A stretch of 24,113 nucleotides of DNA from a virus. Shown piece after piece: positions 897-22,696 of this stretch. The position numbers and the translations under genes were made by a program. The number at the start of each line of letters is the position of its first letter. Position 1 is the first letter of the stretch. The notes under the pieces are model-generated. The model did no database searches and was not told the DNA's origin. It worked only from the letters and a program-made list of their open reading frames with translations. The stretch spans positions 1-24,113 of the IMG/VR virus record IMGVR_UViG_3300049846_001062. One strand, written 5' to 3'.

Positions 897-909
897 CCTA
901 AGTTGCCGG
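897..909 (-). promoter_or_regulatory. Start-associated 13-mer (copy upstream of 864)
   Basis: Reads CCGGCAACTTAGG on the minus strand, matching the window consensus at every position. It is 32 nt from the ATG at 864 and just after the TGA of the preceding fibre gene. Confidence 0.7.
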
Positions 910-2007: not shown

Positions 2008-2020
2008 CCTAGGTTTCCGG
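2008..2020 (-). promoter_or_regulatory. Start-associated 13-mer (copy upstream of 1981)
   Basis: Reads CCGGAAACCTAGG, the exact modal sequence. It is 26 nt before the ATG at 1981. The bases upstream (CTGAGGTG, 2024-2031) partly mirror the right arm AACCTAGG, so this site may also be a degenerate dyad. Confidence 0.75.
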
Positions 2021-2655: not shown

Positions 2656-2668
2656 CCAAGGTTTCCGG
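2656..2668 (-). promoter_or_regulatory. Start-associated 13-mer (copy upstream of 2653)
   Basis: Reads CCGGAAACCTTGG and ends only 2 nt before the ATG at 2653. A CCTGAGG about 14 nt upstream could pair with CCTTGGG in RNA. Confidence 0.7.
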
Positions 2669-2670
2669 CG

Positions 2671-3060
2671 CTATGCCTCAGGGTCGGTCTGGATGTCAAC
2701 GCGCATCTGCGATCTTGGCCCCACACCACGGGGGACATTGATCGCTACCGCATTACTGCCGGGGTACTGCGAGATCAGCACACCGCCCACTTCCTGAAGG
2801 CTGGTGTCACCGCTCCAATCCACCAGATACAGGGTCCAGCGGCTAAACGCTTGCTCGCGGCGGTACTGCCGCACCGGCACCAGTTCCGGCTCCCGCAGAA
2901 TCACTACCTCTAGCCCCCGCACGGCGGTGTTGGGAGGCAAGCTCTCACCGGCAGCACGCACCGAGATCGCCGGCGTCTTGACGCCATTGGCGAGCGTGTA
3001 TGCGCCCAGGTAGTTCACCAGGACGGTCTCTAGCTCGGTTCGCAGGGTGAGCACGTCCAT
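2671..3060 (-). CDS. Possible tail terminator / tail completion protein (129 aa)
   Basis: I do not recognise this firmly. Size and pattern resemble tail terminators of the lambda gpU group: an N-terminal helix (LRTELETVLVNYLGAYTLAN), a central strand pair (RGLEVVILREPELVPVRQY), then FSRWTLYLVDWSGDT and a second helix (EVGGVLISQYPG), ending in a strand with an acidic tail. It follows the frameshifting tail chaperone pair by 4 nt, which is tail-assembly context. In most siphophages the terminator precedes the tail tube gene, and no other candidate is visible there. A peripheral baseplate protein is the alternative. The ATG lies 3 nt after a motif copy. Confidence 0.5.
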   Translation of the reverse strand: MDVLTLRTELETVLVNYLGAYTLANGVKTPAISVRAAGESLPPNTAVRGLEVVILREPELVPVRQYRREQAFSRWTLYLVDWSGDTSLQEVGGVLISQYPGSNAVAINVPRGVGPRSQMRVDIQTDPEA

Positions 3061-3063
3061 GGA

Positions 3064-3076
3064 CCTAGATTTCCTG
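3064..3076 (-). promoter_or_regulatory. Start-associated 13-mer (copy upstream of 3060)
   Basis: Reads CAGGAAATCTAGG. The TAG inside it is the stop codon of the tail chaperone fusion, and the ATG of the next gene follows after 3 nt. Confidence 0.65.
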
Positions 3077-5879: not shown

Positions 5880-6281
5880 TCAGTCATCCACAGCCAAGGT
5901 GATCGTGTAGGTCTTGGTTTGACCGGCGGCCATCGTGATGCTCGGCGTCTCTACCAGCAGGCTGTGCAGGTAGGTCGCGGTGCCGATCCTGATGCACACC
6001 GTGTCGTAGGTGTAGCCAGCACCGGTTGCCGTGAAGGTGGCATTGATCACTGGCAGCTCATAGCGAGCGTTGCCAGAGGAGTAAGCACCTGTTGCCACGG
6101 TGCCGGTGGCATCGGCATAGCCGTTGCCCGACATCTTGACTGCAATCCAGGCGCTGGCTGTGGATTCAGCGGTAAGAGTGCCGCTGTTTTTGGCCAAGAA
6201 GACCGTGTAGGTCTGACCTTCAAAGGCTGCAGCGGCTTGGCGTTGCAGTTCCTTGGTGCTAATCGTTGTCGTCAGTGCCAT
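5880..6281 (-). CDS. Small beta-rich virion protein (133 aa)
   Basis: Composition is Thr/Ala/Ser/Gly-rich with regular alternating strands. It begins MALTTTISTKELQRQAAAAF and ends in TKTYTITLAVDD. A central SGNGYADATGTVATGAY segment recalls the GNGYTAGGNTASVT segment of the preceding gene. That suggests the two share a fold, possibly by duplication, but the rest is too diverged to be sure by eye. Its ATG overlaps the stop of that gene (TGATG), so the two are probably made together in similar amounts. Decoration, tail-tip or fibre-base roles are all possible. Confidence 0.6.
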   Translation of the reverse strand: MALTTTISTKELQRQAAAAFEGQTYTVFLAKNSGTLTAESTASAWIAVKMSGNGYADATGTVATGAYSSGNARYELPVINATFTATGAGYTYDTVCIRIGTATYLHSLLVETPSITMAAGQTKTYTITLAVDD

Positions 6282-6703
6282 CAGGCCAGGGTCAGAACGC
6301 CGGTGGTCGGATCGAAGTCAACGGTGAAGGACTCACCAGCGGCCAAGGTCAGAGCGGAGCCGTAGTCCCACCAGCCGATCAGCTCCTTATTGGTTGCGGT
6401 GTCGTTGTAGAGAACGGCATAGCGGAAGGGGCCAATGCTGCCGCCGCTGGCTGTCCAAGTGGCCGGGTCGCCCAGCACCAGCTTGTAGGTGCCGGAGGTC
6501 TGCGCAGAACTGGTGACCGAGGCGGTGTTGCCACCGGCGGTGTAGCCGTTACCCGCGGAGATCTCTGTGATGTCTGCCTTGACGCTATTGGCAGCCACCG
6601 GGGCGGTGTTGGTGAGCATCACCTTCAAGGTGTCGCTGCCAAGGTTGTGAACCTTCTCTGCCAGCGCCTCCACAAAGCTATTGAACTTGTTGAACGCGGC
6701 CAT
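6281..6703 (-). CDS. Small virion protein of a widespread phage family (140 aa)
   Basis: The sequence FNKFNSFVEALAEKVHNLGS, then DTLKVMLTNTAPVAANSVKA and DITEISAGNGYTAGG is of a type that recurs in many phages and prophages, usually annotated as hypothetical, next to tail genes. A short N-terminal helix is followed by strands, ending SFTVDFDPTTGVLTLA. It is the first gene of a unit reaching to the tail chaperones and has its own motif copy 17 nt upstream. A structural role is likely from context; nothing in the sequence gives a precise function. Confidence 0.65.
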   Translation of the reverse strand: MAAFNKFNSFVEALAEKVHNLGSDTLKVMLTNTAPVAANSVKADITEISAGNGYTAGGNTASVTSSAQTSGTYKLVLGDPATWTASGGSIGPFRYAVLYNDTATNKELIGWWDYGSALTLAAGESFTVDFDPTTGVLTLA

Positions 6704-6720: not shown

Positions 6721-6733
6721 GCTAGGTTGCCTC
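6721..6733 (-). promoter_or_regulatory. Start-associated 13-mer (copy upstream of 6703)
   Basis: Reads GAGGCAACCTAGC, differing from the consensus mainly at the last base. It is 17 nt before the ATG at 6703 and just after the TAA of the hub gene. Confidence 0.6.
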
Positions 6734-14999: not shown

Positions 15000-15012
15000 C
15001 CGAGATTGCCCC
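15000..15012 (-). promoter_or_regulatory. Start-associated 13-mer, tape measure side of a divergent pair
   Basis: Reads GGGGCAATCTCGG on the minus strand, 13 nt before GTG 14986. With the plus-strand copy at 15011-15023 it forms a 24-bp dyad with arms CCGAGATT and AACCTCGG (7 of 8 complementary). Confidence 0.7.
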
Positions 15013-15023
15013 GGAAACCTCGG
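15011..15023 (+). promoter_or_regulatory. Start-associated 13-mer, neck-cassette side of a divergent pair
   Basis: Reads CCGGAAACCTCGG on the plus strand, 2 nt before the ATG at 15026. The CCGG is shared with the opposed minus-strand site. Confidence 0.75.
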
Positions 15024-15025
15024 TT

Positions 15026-15418
15026 ATGGCTTCAGCTCTCAGCGCACTCGCTAACGCCACTGCCACCTTCTATGTGGCCGCAACGGGGGTGGTGACTGAT
15101 ACCACCACTGGCAACGTCCTGCCCGCAACGGAATCCGTCACCGTTTCGCTCTTCCTCAAGTCCGACAAGATCAGTGGCACTTCATTCCCCGGCGTCGAAA
15201 TTCAAGAAACCGTCTTCGATGGCTACGCCCTCGATACCCTCGACGCACGGATCGTTGTCGGCACCACCGGAACCGTCAACTTCGCTAGTGAAGGTGTGCT
15301 GCCCTGCGAAGTCACTGGTGTACGCCTCCCTTACGGCAAAACCGGCCTGATTGGCAGCACCCTCAACGCAGCGCTGGGTGAGCGCATTCAACTGGCGTCC
15401 CGTGAGCAAATGGGATGA
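15026..15418 (+). CDS. Probable head-closure / stopper-type neck protein (130 aa), plus strand
   Basis: This small beta-rich protein (MASALSALANATATFYVAAT, then SVTVSLFLKSDKISGTSFPG and TLDARIVVGTTGTVNF) lies immediately before an HK97 gp10-like gene and overlaps it by ATGA. In many siphophages the head-closure protein precedes gp10 in this way, so I infer a neck role. I see no diagnostic residues. What is odd is the strand: this and the next gene run against the minus-strand block and lie between tail tube and tape measure. The ATG is chosen because it is the first start after the stop-rich leader, and it lies 2 nt behind an excellent motif copy. Confidence 0.6.
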   Translation: MASALSALANATATFYVAATGVVTDTTTGNVLPATESVTVSLFLKSDKISGTSFPGVEIQETVFDGYALDTLDARIVVGTTGTVNFASEGVLPCEVTGVRLPYGKTGLIGSTLNAALGERIQLASREQMG

Positions 15419-15900
15419 CTGTCACCTTTATCGAATGGAAGCCTGAGCGCATCCTCGACAAGGTGGCCGACACCTTGGAGCAGGCAGGCCCGGTCTACGC
15501 CCAAGCCACCATCCTCCAGATGTCCAATCCCGTCTGGAATTGGAACTGGGACACCCGCAGGCGCGTCAGCCTGCTGATGGGAGGTGAGCGTCAACAGGGG
15601 CAGCGTGGTGTCGTCGTGCGTGCTGGCCGCCGAGACATCGTGGATACCGGCCGCCTTTTGGACTCAATGACCGCACCAAAGGTGGTGCGGGAACAGGGTG
15701 CCATCACGCTGCAAATTGAGTGGAAAGCGCCTTATTCCGGCCGTGTCCTGGCAGGCGGCGATTACGGCACCTACACACCTCCTGGGCAGCGTGATGCGGT
15801 CTCGATGCCCAATCGCCCGGCACGCAACTGGATTGAAGCCGCCTTCCAGTCACAGCCGCCCCTAGACGTTTTCAGCAACATCTGGCGTGGTGGGTCATAG
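15415..15900 (+). CDS. HK97 gp10-like neck / tail completion protein (161 aa), plus strand
   Basis: An N-terminal helix (ERILDKVADTLEQAGPVYAQ) is followed by RRDIVDTGRLLDSMTAP, a strand (ITLQIEWKAPYSGRVLAGG), and then NRPARNWIEAAF. The order DTGRLLDS, Y-x-x-x-V-x-x-G and PARxW near the end is the pattern of HK97 gp10 / gpZ-like proteins that join head and tail. Length is in the family range. It overlaps the preceding gene (ATGA), so the two form a translational pair. The pair ends at back-to-back hairpins (15904-15963) before the convergent tail tube gene. I am confident of the family type, less of which neck ring it forms. Confidence 0.7.
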   Translation: MTVTFIEWKPERILDKVADTLEQAGPVYAQATILQMSNPVWNWNWDTRRRVSLLMGGERQQGQRGVVVRAGRRDIVDTGRLLDSMTAPKVVREQGAITLQIEWKAPYSGRVLAGGDYGTYTPPGQRDAVSMPNRPARNWIEAAFQSQPPLDVFSNIWRGGS

Positions 15901-15903
15901 CAA

Positions 15904-15935
15904 AAGCCCGGTCAGCCATCTAGCTAACCGGGCTT
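15904..15935 (-). terminator. Hairpin between convergent genes, terminator-like on the minus strand
   Basis: A perfect 9-bp stem, AAGCCCGGT (15904-15912) with ACCGGGCTT (15927-15935), and a 14-nt loop. On the minus strand the stem runs directly into TTTTG, so it should end transcription from the tail tube gene. On the plus strand no T-run follows, though the stem may still slow the neck-cassette transcript. Confidence 0.7.
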
Positions 15936-15963
15936 CCCTAGCACCACCACCCCAGCGCTAGGG
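15936..15963. other. Second hairpin adjoining the terminator
   Basis: CCCTAGC (15936-15942) pairs with GCTAGGG (15957-15963) across a 14-nt loop, abutting the first hairpin with no gap. No T-run on either side. It may help separate the two convergent transcripts. Confidence 0.45.
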
Positions 15964-15974
15964 GCGGCCGCTTA

Positions 15975-16454
15975 TCAGGCGTTGGTCTCAGCGCTCCAGG
16001 TGTAGGCGCCGTAACCGGTGAGGGTGAAGCTCACAGATGCCACGTTGCCGGCAGCAATCGACTCGGAGAAGTCGGTCACCCAAGCCACACCCGAGTGGTA
16101 CTCAGGGTTGCCAGCAGCGCTTTGCTCGGGGGATTCGCGATACCACTGAACCGTGACGCCGGTGGCAGCGTTGAGGGCGGCGTTCTTCAGTACCTGATAA
16201 CCGGCGTCATTGAGGTTCAGGTTCATCTGCATCGGGATGCTGTAGCTCTGGCGCTGCACCACCGTTGCGGTAAAGCCCAGGTCACTGCCGTAGTCCAGAA
16301 CGTCCTGGGTTTCGGTGGAACCCTGGATGCCGGCTTCAGTCAGCGACAGCACCTCGGTCAGGCCAGTGCTGTTGGTGGGGTGGGTGCTAGCGGTAGTACC
16401 AGCTTTAACCCAGAACCGATAGTTGAGCGAGTTAAAGAACGCACCCGTAGCCAT
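15975..16454 (-). CDS. Major tail tube protein (159 aa)
   Basis: The gene order and sequence fit a lambda gpV / HK97-type tail tube subunit. A start (MATGAFFNSLNYRFWVKAGT) is followed by strands through LDYGSDLGFTATVVQRQSYS and IPMQMNLNLNDAGYQVLKNA, a helix around residues 82-95, and a final strand pair (ASVSFTLTGYGAYTW). The pairs of strands with a late helix and the size are typical of tube proteins. It is probably made in large amounts; it has its own motif copy and its own terminator, so it forms a single-gene unit. Downstream, where tail chaperones normally lie, there is instead a plus-strand neck cassette. Confidence 0.8.
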   Translation of the reverse strand: MATGAFFNSLNYRFWVKAGTTASTHPTNSTGLTEVLSLTEAGIQGSTETQDVLDYGSDLGFTATVVQRQSYSIPMQMNLNLNDAGYQVLKNAALNAATGVTVQWYRESPEQSAAGNPEYHSGVAWVTDFSESIAAGNVASVSFTLTGYGAYTWSAETNA

Positions 16455-16477
16455 TGACCTGTTAAGCGTTGGTTGCT

Positions 16478-16490
16478 CCTAGATTTCCTC
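16478..16490 (-). promoter_or_regulatory. Start-associated 13-mer (copy upstream of 16454)
   Basis: Reads GAGGAAATCTAGG, 23 nt before the ATG. Its TAG is the stop codon of the sigma-like gene. Confidence 0.65.
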
Positions 16491-17030
16491 GGCTTCTAAG
16501 ACTTCGTACGGCGTAGGGCGCGGGCAAACATGTAGGTCGAAGCCGCGGATGTCGTGATCCGTGGGGCTCGTGGCTACTAAGGCGAGGCGCAGCGCCTCTT
16601 CAGTCATTTGGAGTTGCGTCAGCACTTCAGCTCTGCTGTAGCCCTTGTCTAGTAGCCGGCGGGCTAGCTGCCCGTTGCGGCGGACGGTGCCGGGGGCTTT
16701 GACGAGCCAGTTGTGGTCGCGAATGAAGTGCAGAACGTCGCCCTCCGCAAACACTGTCAGCAGGGTGCTGAACGTGCCCTTGGCGGGTTGCCACGCACGG
16801 CACGTCTTGATAAACGCCTGATCAATACAACTGAATACGTCCTCTGCGCTAACGAACGGGTATTTGCGGCATAGCTTTCGCCCCATCATCCGCAGAAGAC
16901 CTTGATGCTCCCGGTACATCGCAGCGATGCGCCGTTGCTCCTCTCGCGATAGCGGGGTCGCTAAGTAGCCCGTGCGGGGGCGGTGGCGCGTTGCAGAAGG
17001 CGCGTCTGTGGGCGGGGCACCCTGAGCCAT
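16479..17030 (-). CDS. Sigma-70-like protein, regions 2-3 without region 4 (183 aa)
   Basis: Residues 36-108 follow the region 2 pattern of sigma-70 factors: MYREHQGLLRMMGRKLCRKY, then AEDVFSCIDQAFIKTCRAW, QPAKGTFSTLL and DVLHFIRDHNW. They match the usual D-x-x-Q-x-A-F, F-x-P-x-KG-x-FST and IRD landmarks. Residues 109-150 (KAPGTVRRNGQLARRLLDKG, then SRAEVLTQLQMTEEALRLAL) look like a region 3 helix set. The C-terminus has no helix-turn-helix for region 4. If active, it would direct host RNA polymerase to phage promoters. Placement inside the structural module, between adaptor and tail tube, is odd. A diverged or inactive sigma fold, or a terminase-small-like DNA-binding protein, are alternatives. 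Confidence 0.65.
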   Translation of the reverse strand: MAQGAPPTDAPSATRHRPRTGYLATPLSREEQRRIAAMYREHQGLLRMMGRKLCRKYPFVSAEDVFSCIDQAFIKTCRAWQPAKGTFSTLLTVFAEGDVLHFIRDHNWLVKAPGTVRRNGQLARRLLDKGYSRAEVLTQLQMTEEALRLALVATSPTDHDIRGFDLHVCPRPTPYEVLEAEEI

Positions 17031-17078
17031 GAACTCGGTTCGGGCCTACCCAATGTAGTTGCGTATGGCTAACGCTAC

Positions 17079-17639
17079 CTAGCTGCGCTGAACCTGTACG
17101 ACGCCAAGCCCCGTTCGCGTCGTGCTGGTGGTTAAACAGCCGAGAATTGCTGCTAAGTGAGGTAGCACTGTTAAAGGAGTCACCGCTTCGGTGGTGGAAT
17201 TGCCAACGTCAGTGCGCCACTCAATCTCCATCACATCCAACTTCAGTCGGCGCAGGTCGCGGTTTGGAACGCCGGCCACAAGTGCTTTGGAGCTGGGGGT
17301 GCTGCGCAGCAGGGTGGGGTCGCCGAGTAGGGCGTTGGCGAGGTCGAAGGTAGCTAGCTCAACCTCTCGCGGTATTTGCGTTGCGGTGTAGTCCTTGTCG
17401 CCGCACTTTGCGTTGGACCTTGGCCACGCCAAAGCTTGGGTCGTCGTGGCTCTGGTGCCGATCCAGCCCAACGTCTCTAAACCGTTGGTGGCTGTGATCA
17501 AAGCACGGACCTTGTTATCGCTCGTTGCACTGCTCCAGGCCAGCGTCCCCACCATCCCGTCAGCAATGCTGTCCGCTCCAGCGACGCTTAAGTAGCTGTT
17601 GGCGTTGCTGGCTCCAGCAGTCGCAACGAGGGTGGGCAC
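17079..17639 (-). CDS. Head-tail adaptor / connector protein, DnaT-like fold (186 aa)
   Basis: The sequence pattern SNANSYLSVAGADSIADG, then DNKVRALITATNGLETLGWI, QALAWPRSNAKCGDK, and IPREVELATFDLANALLGD is that of phage adaptor proteins often labelled DnaT-like or HK97 gp6-like. The QALAWPRS element and the following helix are the most diagnostic part. These proteins form the ring under the portal. The start is GTG at 17639. A divergent gene begins at 17700, and the 60 bp between them hold two opposed motif copies. It follows the capsid gene with the plus-strand helix-turn-helix gene in between. Length is normal for the family. Confidence 0.75.
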   Translation of the reverse strand: MPTLVATAGASNANSYLSVAGADSIADGMVGTLAWSSATSDNKVRALITATNGLETLGWIGTRATTTQALAWPRSNAKCGDKDYTATQIPREVELATFDLANALLGDPTLLRSTPSSKALVAGVPNRDLRRLKLDVMEIEWRTDVGNSTTEAVTPLTVLPHLAAILGCLTTSTTRTGLGVVQVQRS

Positions 17640-17656
17640 TGGCTTCTGCGCGATTG

Positions 17657-17669
17657 CCTAGGTTTCCGG
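17657..17669 (-). promoter_or_regulatory. Start-associated 13-mer, adaptor side of a divergent pair
   Basis: Reads CCGGAAACCTAGG, an exact modal copy, 17 nt before GTG 17639. It overlaps the opposed plus-strand copy on CCGG, as at 15011-15014. Confidence 0.75.
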
Positions 17670-17680
17670 GGCAACTTTGG
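17668..17680 (+). promoter_or_regulatory. Start-associated 13-mer, helix-turn-helix side of a divergent pair
   Basis: Reads GGGGCAACTTTGG on the plus strand, 19 nt before GTG 17700. The same GGGGCAA variant is used on one side of the other divergent pair. Confidence 0.7.
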
Positions 17681-18012: not shown

Positions 18013-18044
18013 AAAAAAAAAAAAGCCCCCTGCTTGAGGGGGCT
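18013..18044 (-). terminator. Strong intrinsic terminator after the capsid gene
   Basis: On the minus strand AGCCCCC and GGGGGCT arms (18044-18038 and 18030-18024) form a 7-8 bp GC stem with a 5-7 nt loop, and the distal arm runs into a tract of about 12 T (A-run 18013-18024 on the plus strand). It lies 20 nt after the capsid stop. Confidence 0.9.
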
Positions 18045-19915: not shown

Positions 19916-19928
19916 ACTAAGTTGCCGG
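19916..19928 (-). promoter_or_regulatory. Start-associated 13-mer (copy upstream of 19895)
   Basis: Reads CCGGCAACTTAGT, with a single departure at the last base, 20 nt before the scaffold ATG. The CCGGCAACTTAG core equals that at 897-909. Confidence 0.65.
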
Positions 19929-22683: not shown

Positions 22684-22696
22684 CCTAGGATTCCGC
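22684..22696 (-). promoter_or_regulatory. Start-associated 13-mer (copy upstream of 22660)
   Basis: Reads GCGGAATCCTAGG, with departures at positions 7 and 8, 23 nt before the portal GTG, directly after the terminase stop. Confidence 0.65.

Follow-up and report, generated by a model that had tools for sequence, protein, structure and literature searches.

Two 24-bp sites stand between divergent genes in IMG/VR virus record IMGVR_UViG_3300049846_001062, which was analyzed as a whole (24,113 bases, hereafter the window) and is probably a fragment. From sequence comparison, these sites appear to be two back-to-back copies of the ordinary start signal of this phage, the asymmetric 11-mer GGMAAYYTNGG, which is the unit common to all copies. 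Very probably, this 11-mer serves as a late promoter that consists of one element, equivalent to an extended -10 box, and is read by a 183-amino-acid (aa) phage sigma factor with no detected region 4. For the terminase, the closest named relatives are the cyanophages S-H1, MED4-117, and KBS-S-2A (43-46% identity), which share homologous terminase, capsid, and adaptor genes with the window phage, and the group appears to consist of uncultured siphophages akin to known cyanophages. They are probably freshwater cyanobacterial viruses, and their named relatives suggest freshwater picocyanobacteria as hosts.

The two 24-mers were found at the coordinates and on the strands given in the original prediction: site A, positions 15000-15023 on the minus strand, reads CCGAGGTTTCCGGGGCAATCTCGG, and site B, positions 17657-17680 on the plus strand, reads CCTAGGTTTCCGGGGCAACTTTGG, the two being identical at 20 of 24 positions. 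An exact 15-mer, AGGTTTCCGGGGCAA, is common to both and occurs twice in the window; with up to three mismatches, it has four matches in the window versus 0.61 expected. The placement between divergent genes was also described correctly, with the tape measure gene and the helix-turn-helix (HTH) gene on the GGGGCAA side. Site A is flanked by the tape measure gene (minus strand) and gene 15026-15418 (plus strand), and site B by the gene for the head-tail adaptor Ad1 (minus strand) and a gene for a 102-aa HTH protein (plus strand). The arms had also been described as overlapping on a shared CCGG, and this has to be corrected, as arms delimited by GGMAAYYTNGG abut with a 2-bp gap; a flanking CC is weakly favored (41-46% of sites). 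Two such back-to-back pairs occur in the window, compared with one in total over 300 dinucleotide shuffles. The four arms are listed here, with the first letter of the motif counted as position 1.

15000-15010, minus strand: motif GGCAATCTCGG, left arm of site A, facing the tape measure gene; predicted transcription start at about 14997.
15013-15023, plus strand: motif GGAAACCTCGG, right arm of site A, facing gene 15026-15418; ATG at position 14, predicted to be leaderless.
17657-17667, minus strand: motif GGAAACCTAGG, left arm of site B, facing the gene for Ad1 and then the sigma gene; predicted start at about 17654.
17670-17680, plus strand: motif GGCAACTTTGG, right arm of site B, facing the gene for the 102-aa HTH protein; predicted start at about 17683.

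Relatives have a motif at the same place as the left arm of site A, with the start codon of the tape measure gene at motif position 31-35, and for the counterpart of the right arm the ATG falls at position 14-15. The arms are not special to paired sites, as the GGAAACCT arm is found singly before other window genes, and at least seven window genes, apart from those at the two sites, are preceded by an unpaired 11-mer. These single copies, and one weaker candidate, are as follows.

16478-16488, minus strand: motif GGAAATCTAGG, unpaired, upstream of the major tail protein gene, whose ATG falls at position 35; the motif shares bases with the stop codon of the sigma gene.
19916-19926, minus strand: motif GGCAACTTAGT, unpaired, upstream of the scaffold gene, which the capsid gene follows.
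22684-22694, minus strand: motif GGAATCCTAGG, a weaker candidate that departs from the consensus only at position 5, upstream of the portal gene.
6721-6731, minus strand: single motif GGCAACCTAGC before gene 6281-6703.
3064-3074, minus strand: single motif GGAAATCTAGG before gene 2671-3060; ATG at position 15, predicted to be leaderless.
2656-2666, minus strand: single motif GGAAACCTTGG before gene 2309-2653; ATG at position 14, predicted to be leaderless (the open reading frame tool gives an earlier TTG start at 2659).
2008-2018, minus strand: single motif GGAAACCTAGG before gene 917-1981.
897-907, minus strand: single motif GGCAACTTAGG before gene 640-864.

A relaxed form of the motif has 11 matches in the window as against 1.8 in shuffles. 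When the pattern was searched across 18 relative records, GGMAAYYTNGG was found in 14, with the reversed pattern, used as a control, near nil. Across the phage family, the 11-mer precedes most structural gene groups; relatives carry a full motif before the portal gene, and the copy before the major tail protein gene is present in nearly all sigma-positive relatives whose sequence reaches there, down to 54% sigma identity. Other signals were also sought: the spaced pattern GGAAACCTNNNNGGGGCAA has no matches because the arms lie on opposite strands, sigma-70-type promoters number zero near the sites versus 0.9 in shuffles, and no Rfam family was matched. GGMAAYYTNGG is not described in the literature searched. 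A motif match within the capsid gene (18164, minus strand) recurs in relatives; it and its equivalents fall in codons of the conserved TGNLGAT and were judged probably a coding coincidence.

The identical spacing of the two window sites and their common 15-mer might suggest an operator for a symmetric or paired complex, for example of the HTH protein, with arms held at fixed spacing, as the original prediction had proposed from the exact shared geometry. Among 51 distinct pairs from relatives, 34 do have a gap of 2-3 bp, the most frequent spacing. However, the full distribution in these pairs extends from 1 to 19 bp, with gaps of 1 bp (one pair), 2 bp (19), 3 bp (15), 4 bp (two), 5 bp (six), 6 bp (two), 8 bp (two), 9 bp (one), 17 bp (one), and 19 bp (two). 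In a close relative (G009), the two sites have gaps of 3 and 2 bp, and in another relative (L006/G001) the arms stand about 165 bp apart with a small open reading frame inserted between the HTH and Ad1 genes. The exact shared geometry is thus a coincidence of the window genome, and because arm spacing varies among relatives, a fixed paired complex is contradicted; close packing of the arms is favored, not exact. In addition, the majority of copies occur singly and point toward a gene. The HTH gene occurs in phages without the motif, and no homologue of it was found in 10 phages that carry the motif. An operator of this type is accordingly very improbable. The other possibility raised in the original prediction, a bidirectional control element, agrees with the data in that each arm is an independent, outward-facing, promoter-like copy serving its own gene.

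The anatomy of this promoter-like element was derived from 210 dereplicated gene-linked sites. No information is present at positions -45 to -5, and hence no -35 element is seen. An A-rich patch occurs at motif positions 14-17, even where the start codon lies far downstream. The start codon falls at motif position 14-15 in 24 sites, at 16-24 in two, and at 25-47 in 180. From these features we infer that the 11-mer acts as a promoter of one element, with transcription starting at about motif position 14-16; genes with an ATG at 14-15 are accordingly predicted to be leaderless, and the remaining genes to have leaders of approximately 12-30 nucleotides (nt). Relative to a standard -10 element, GG would correspond to the extended -10 (the -14/-13 region) and NGG to the discriminator; in that register, A4 and T8 of the motif, both invariant, would lie close to the -11A and -7T that are conserved in such elements. 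Leaderless transcripts have been reported in Synechococcus elongatus (PMC6091082).

The position of the motif, 14-47 nt from start codons, would also be compatible with a signal in the mRNA leader that acts in translation or processing. This reading is even less probable than an operator, since the motif precedes gene clusters and not each gene, and since start codons lie at widely spread, bimodally distributed distances from it, which would not be expected of a ribosome-binding site. Furthermore, the paired sites would then require transcription to start inside the opposite arm, and a leader signal matches no Rfam family and leaves the link to the sigma gene unexplained. The late timing of the proposed promoter is read from gene content in a single 48-kb relative (G002), in which all gene-linked motifs lie between 17.8 and 43.9 kb, where they precede genes for portal, scaffold, adaptor, and tail proteins and genes on the lysis side; none occurs in the first 17.7 kb, which holds the genes for integrase, DNA polymerase, primase, SSB, and exonuclease. 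Because this relative has an integrase gene (G002:1201-2064, minus strand), one or more of the relatives may be temperate.

Two candidate binders, the sigma-like and the HTH protein, had been named in the original prediction, and distribution among relatives separates them. Each of the 12 records with a homologue of the sigma carries 6-10 motifs, and each of the nine records that lack one but share the capsid and adaptor genes, including KBS-S-2A, S-H1, and MED4-117, carries 0-2 (G012 ends at the sigma position and is not scorable). Among metagenomic loci, which are partly overlapping and redundant, the density of the strict motif per 10 kb is 3.15 with sigma and 0.20 without, as against 0.08 and 0.15 for the controls. 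Motif counts without gene linkage are too noisy in short loci, and gene-linked counts were used instead: the 100 sigma-positive loci together hold 484 such sites, with at least one in every locus, and the 37 sigma-negative loci (394 kb) hold two. On a tree of the capsid protein, the sigma label changes four times, at least three of these changes being forced and on supported branches; at each of them the motif either changes along with the sigma or stays as it was, and in no case does it change in the opposite direction. Sigma-positive phages with very distant capsids retain the motif, and close capsid relatives without sigma (L026, G008:42496-45268; L027; L034) are without it. In the most divergent sigma group, the motif itself has changed, from C to A at position 6 and from about 60% to 97% A at position 9. 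Of the two candidates, the 183-aa sigma is thus strongly supported as the putative reader of the motif, and the HTH protein is excluded by its distribution.

The co-occurrence might also be expected of a neutral lineage marker, unconnected with the sigma protein, that hitchhikes with the tail and sigma module, given that the sigma, the tail tube, and two plus-strand genes are gained and lost together. However, motif copies many kilobases outside this module, at the portal, scaffold, tail, and lysis-side genes, also vanish when the module is absent, and of the alternatives considered, this one is the least probable by our estimate. Four loci (L026, L027, L028, and L034) are without the sigma, tail tube, and plus-strand genes and have no motif in the sequence examined; in L026, other tail genes occupy that position.

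A promoter for another polymerase or sigma factor also has to be considered, and is unlikely. Short promoters close to the start are typical of T7-like enzymes, and many of these genomes encode a full-length phage sigma. However, no single-subunit RNA polymerase was found in 11 records, some possibly incomplete, in a search that detected the Syn5 control (E 4e-77). A full-length RpoD-like phage sigma was likewise rejected as the reader, as it is also present in the motif-free G016 and KBS-S-2A, and a host sigma would leave motif loss in relatives without the short sigma unexplained. The full-length protein, with regions 1.2, 2, 3, and 4, is encoded at G002:44072-45187 on the minus strand (L091:4072-5187), and homologues occur in G003, G004, G007, G009, G010, G012, G013, G016, and KBS-S-2A; the presence of two sigma factors in some phages suggests a cascade.

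The protein that is proposed to read the motif is encoded within the module described above.

16479-17030, minus strand: 183-aa sigma-70-family protein with regions 2 and 3 only, the proposed motif reader.

It is labeled a sigma factor in PHROGs and has sub-threshold sigma matches in Pfam and NCBIfam; of 32 homologues, 28 have a Pfam Sigma70_r2 match, the best at 1e-5, and an alignment of the 32 shows a conserved region-2 stretch, RAWxPxKGTFSTL...EGD[IV]xHFIRDHNW. In a profile search of the PDB, the match was confined to residues 46-151; SigB (8x6g_H) gave an E-value of 2.7e-5 and sigma-F (1l0o_C) a weaker one of 0.023. In the AlphaFold model, a four-helix domain 2 (residues 29-106) is followed by a helix-turn-helix domain 3 (114-153) and a short helix, after which the protein ends. 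Structural alignment fits the model onto domains 2-3 of FliA, SigB, and RpoD-type sigmas, and Foldseek E-values are weak (best 3e-3), yet nearly all top matches are sigma factors. Region 3 has no Pfam match; its presence is indicated by the SigB/SigF profile alignment, which reaches residue 151, and by helices 114-153, which lie on domain 3 of FliA and SigB. Region 4 was detected by Pfam in none of the 32 homologues, and a protein without domain 4 agrees with a promoter without a -35 element. The sole match in the genome collection, at 84% identity, is a 3.3-kb contig (L196) in a Rhodoferax metagenome-assembled genome, probably misbinned phage DNA.

In the mechanism that we propose, host RNA polymerase carrying the 183-aa sigma would recognize GGMAAYYTNGG, and the possession of domains 2 and 3 without a detectable domain 4 would make a -35 element unneeded. 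Transcription would begin at the positions given above, with some genes leaderless and others read after a leader of 12-30 nt. Because such a promoter takes up only about 11 bp, divergent genes can be served by two of them placed back to back and separated by 2 bp, as at sites A and B. The left arm of site B would drive the operon that holds the sigma gene, and positive feedback is predicted because this Ad1 promoter, which stands behind the following hairpin, leads that operon.

18024-18044, minus strand: terminator-like hairpin with a T run, 3' of the capsid gene and upstream of the Ad1 promoter, from a consensus scan.

A GC-rich inverted repeat at 15900-15960, between the convergent ends of genes 15415-15900 (plus strand) and 15975-16454 (minus strand), is possibly a bidirectional terminator. 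We tentatively extend the mechanism, at somewhat less than even chances, to a self-sufficient two-domain sigma that runs the whole late program from 11-bp single-element promoters, with the sigma and its promoter gained or lost together throughout the late genome, exchanged as a unit and drifting together, and with partly leaderless mRNAs.

Several observations weigh against a promoter read by the short sigma. The Sigma70_r2 score of the window protein is 22.1 bits, just below the cut-off of 24, and the confidence of the AlphaFold model is modest (predicted local distance difference test, pLDDT, 71; predicted template modeling score, pTM, 0.54). A sigma factor without domain 4 normally needs a substitute, and no gp33-type domain-4 substitute was identified. 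The sites were selected by pattern, which partly imposes the invariance at fixed positions, and start codons were taken from a simple, uncurated gene-start rule; the predicted leaderless share, approximately 11% of sites, is high for cyanobacteria. An independent-pairs test on the capsid tree gave a median p of 0.25, and the association is not significant by itself because there are just three independent pairs. Finally, the sigma gene is always accompanied by the major tail protein gene and two plus-strand genes, and because it travels with them, the association holds at the level of the module.

Late-gene control has not been described previously for these cyanosiphophages in the literature searched. 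The proposed system would constitute a compact sigma-promoter pair, in which a sigma without domain 4 is matched to one short element and natural relatives have lost both, and it would explain how divergent promoters are packed into about 25 bp. It also raises the question of how a sigma works without domain 4 or a known substitute. In addition, the promoter and its sigma are a candidate orthogonal pair for use in cyanobacteria, and the motif would permit operon mapping of uncultured phages from sequence alone.

Comparison with known systems reveals both similarities and differences. T7-like phages differ in relying on the single-subunit polymerase sought above, and a dyad operator differs in that its half-sites stand at fixed spacing, unlike the 51 pairs (1-19 bp) and the many single sites found here. 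KBS-S-2A, S-H1, and MED4-117 have no short sigma, and their motif counts are not above chance (0-1 matches). The sole cultured-phage matches to the sigma are P-SS2 ORF003, called a "type III" sigma, and S-CRES1 gp20, called "SigF" (31-36% identity; L197:2091-2732 and L198:12308-13042). Both are short SigF-like sigmas of cyanosiphophages that adjoin the terminase gene, can be aligned over domains 2-3, and have no Pfam region 4, but they are longer (213 and 244 aa) and have a different C-terminus, and GGMAAYYTNGG is not enriched nearby. The group 3 sigmas SigB, SigF, and SigG, together with FliA, match in profile and fold over domains 2-3, and EGDVLHFIRD aligns with GEIKRYLRD of SigB; unlike the phage protein and its promoter, as far as could be detected, these sigmas possess domain 4 and use a -35 element, which is GTTTAA in the case of SigB. 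The -10 element of SigB, GGGTAT, is led by GG as is the phage motif (PMC9847131).

The T4 late consensus is TATAAATA, from which the GC-rich consensus GGMAAYYTNGG differs. T4 late promoters also have no -35 element and are read by the small divergent sigma gp55 with gp33 and gp45 (PMC2988020). The system proposed here resembles that of T4 in combining a very small, divergent phage sigma-70-family protein with single-element promoters without a -35 (210 sites, with lateness judged from gene content), but gp55 is modeled on domain 2 and works with gp33, a sigma-4 mimic, and the clamp gp45, whereas the window protein has domains 2 and 3 and no gp33 or gp45 partner was identified. Neither the structure nor the family of gp55 is among the matches, in searches that included no direct comparison with gp55. 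By analogy, the 183-aa sigma may be gp55-like in its working, and we do not class it as a T4-type system. Overall, T4 gp55 appears to be the nearest functional parallel, and SigB and SigF appear to be the nearest sequence relatives.

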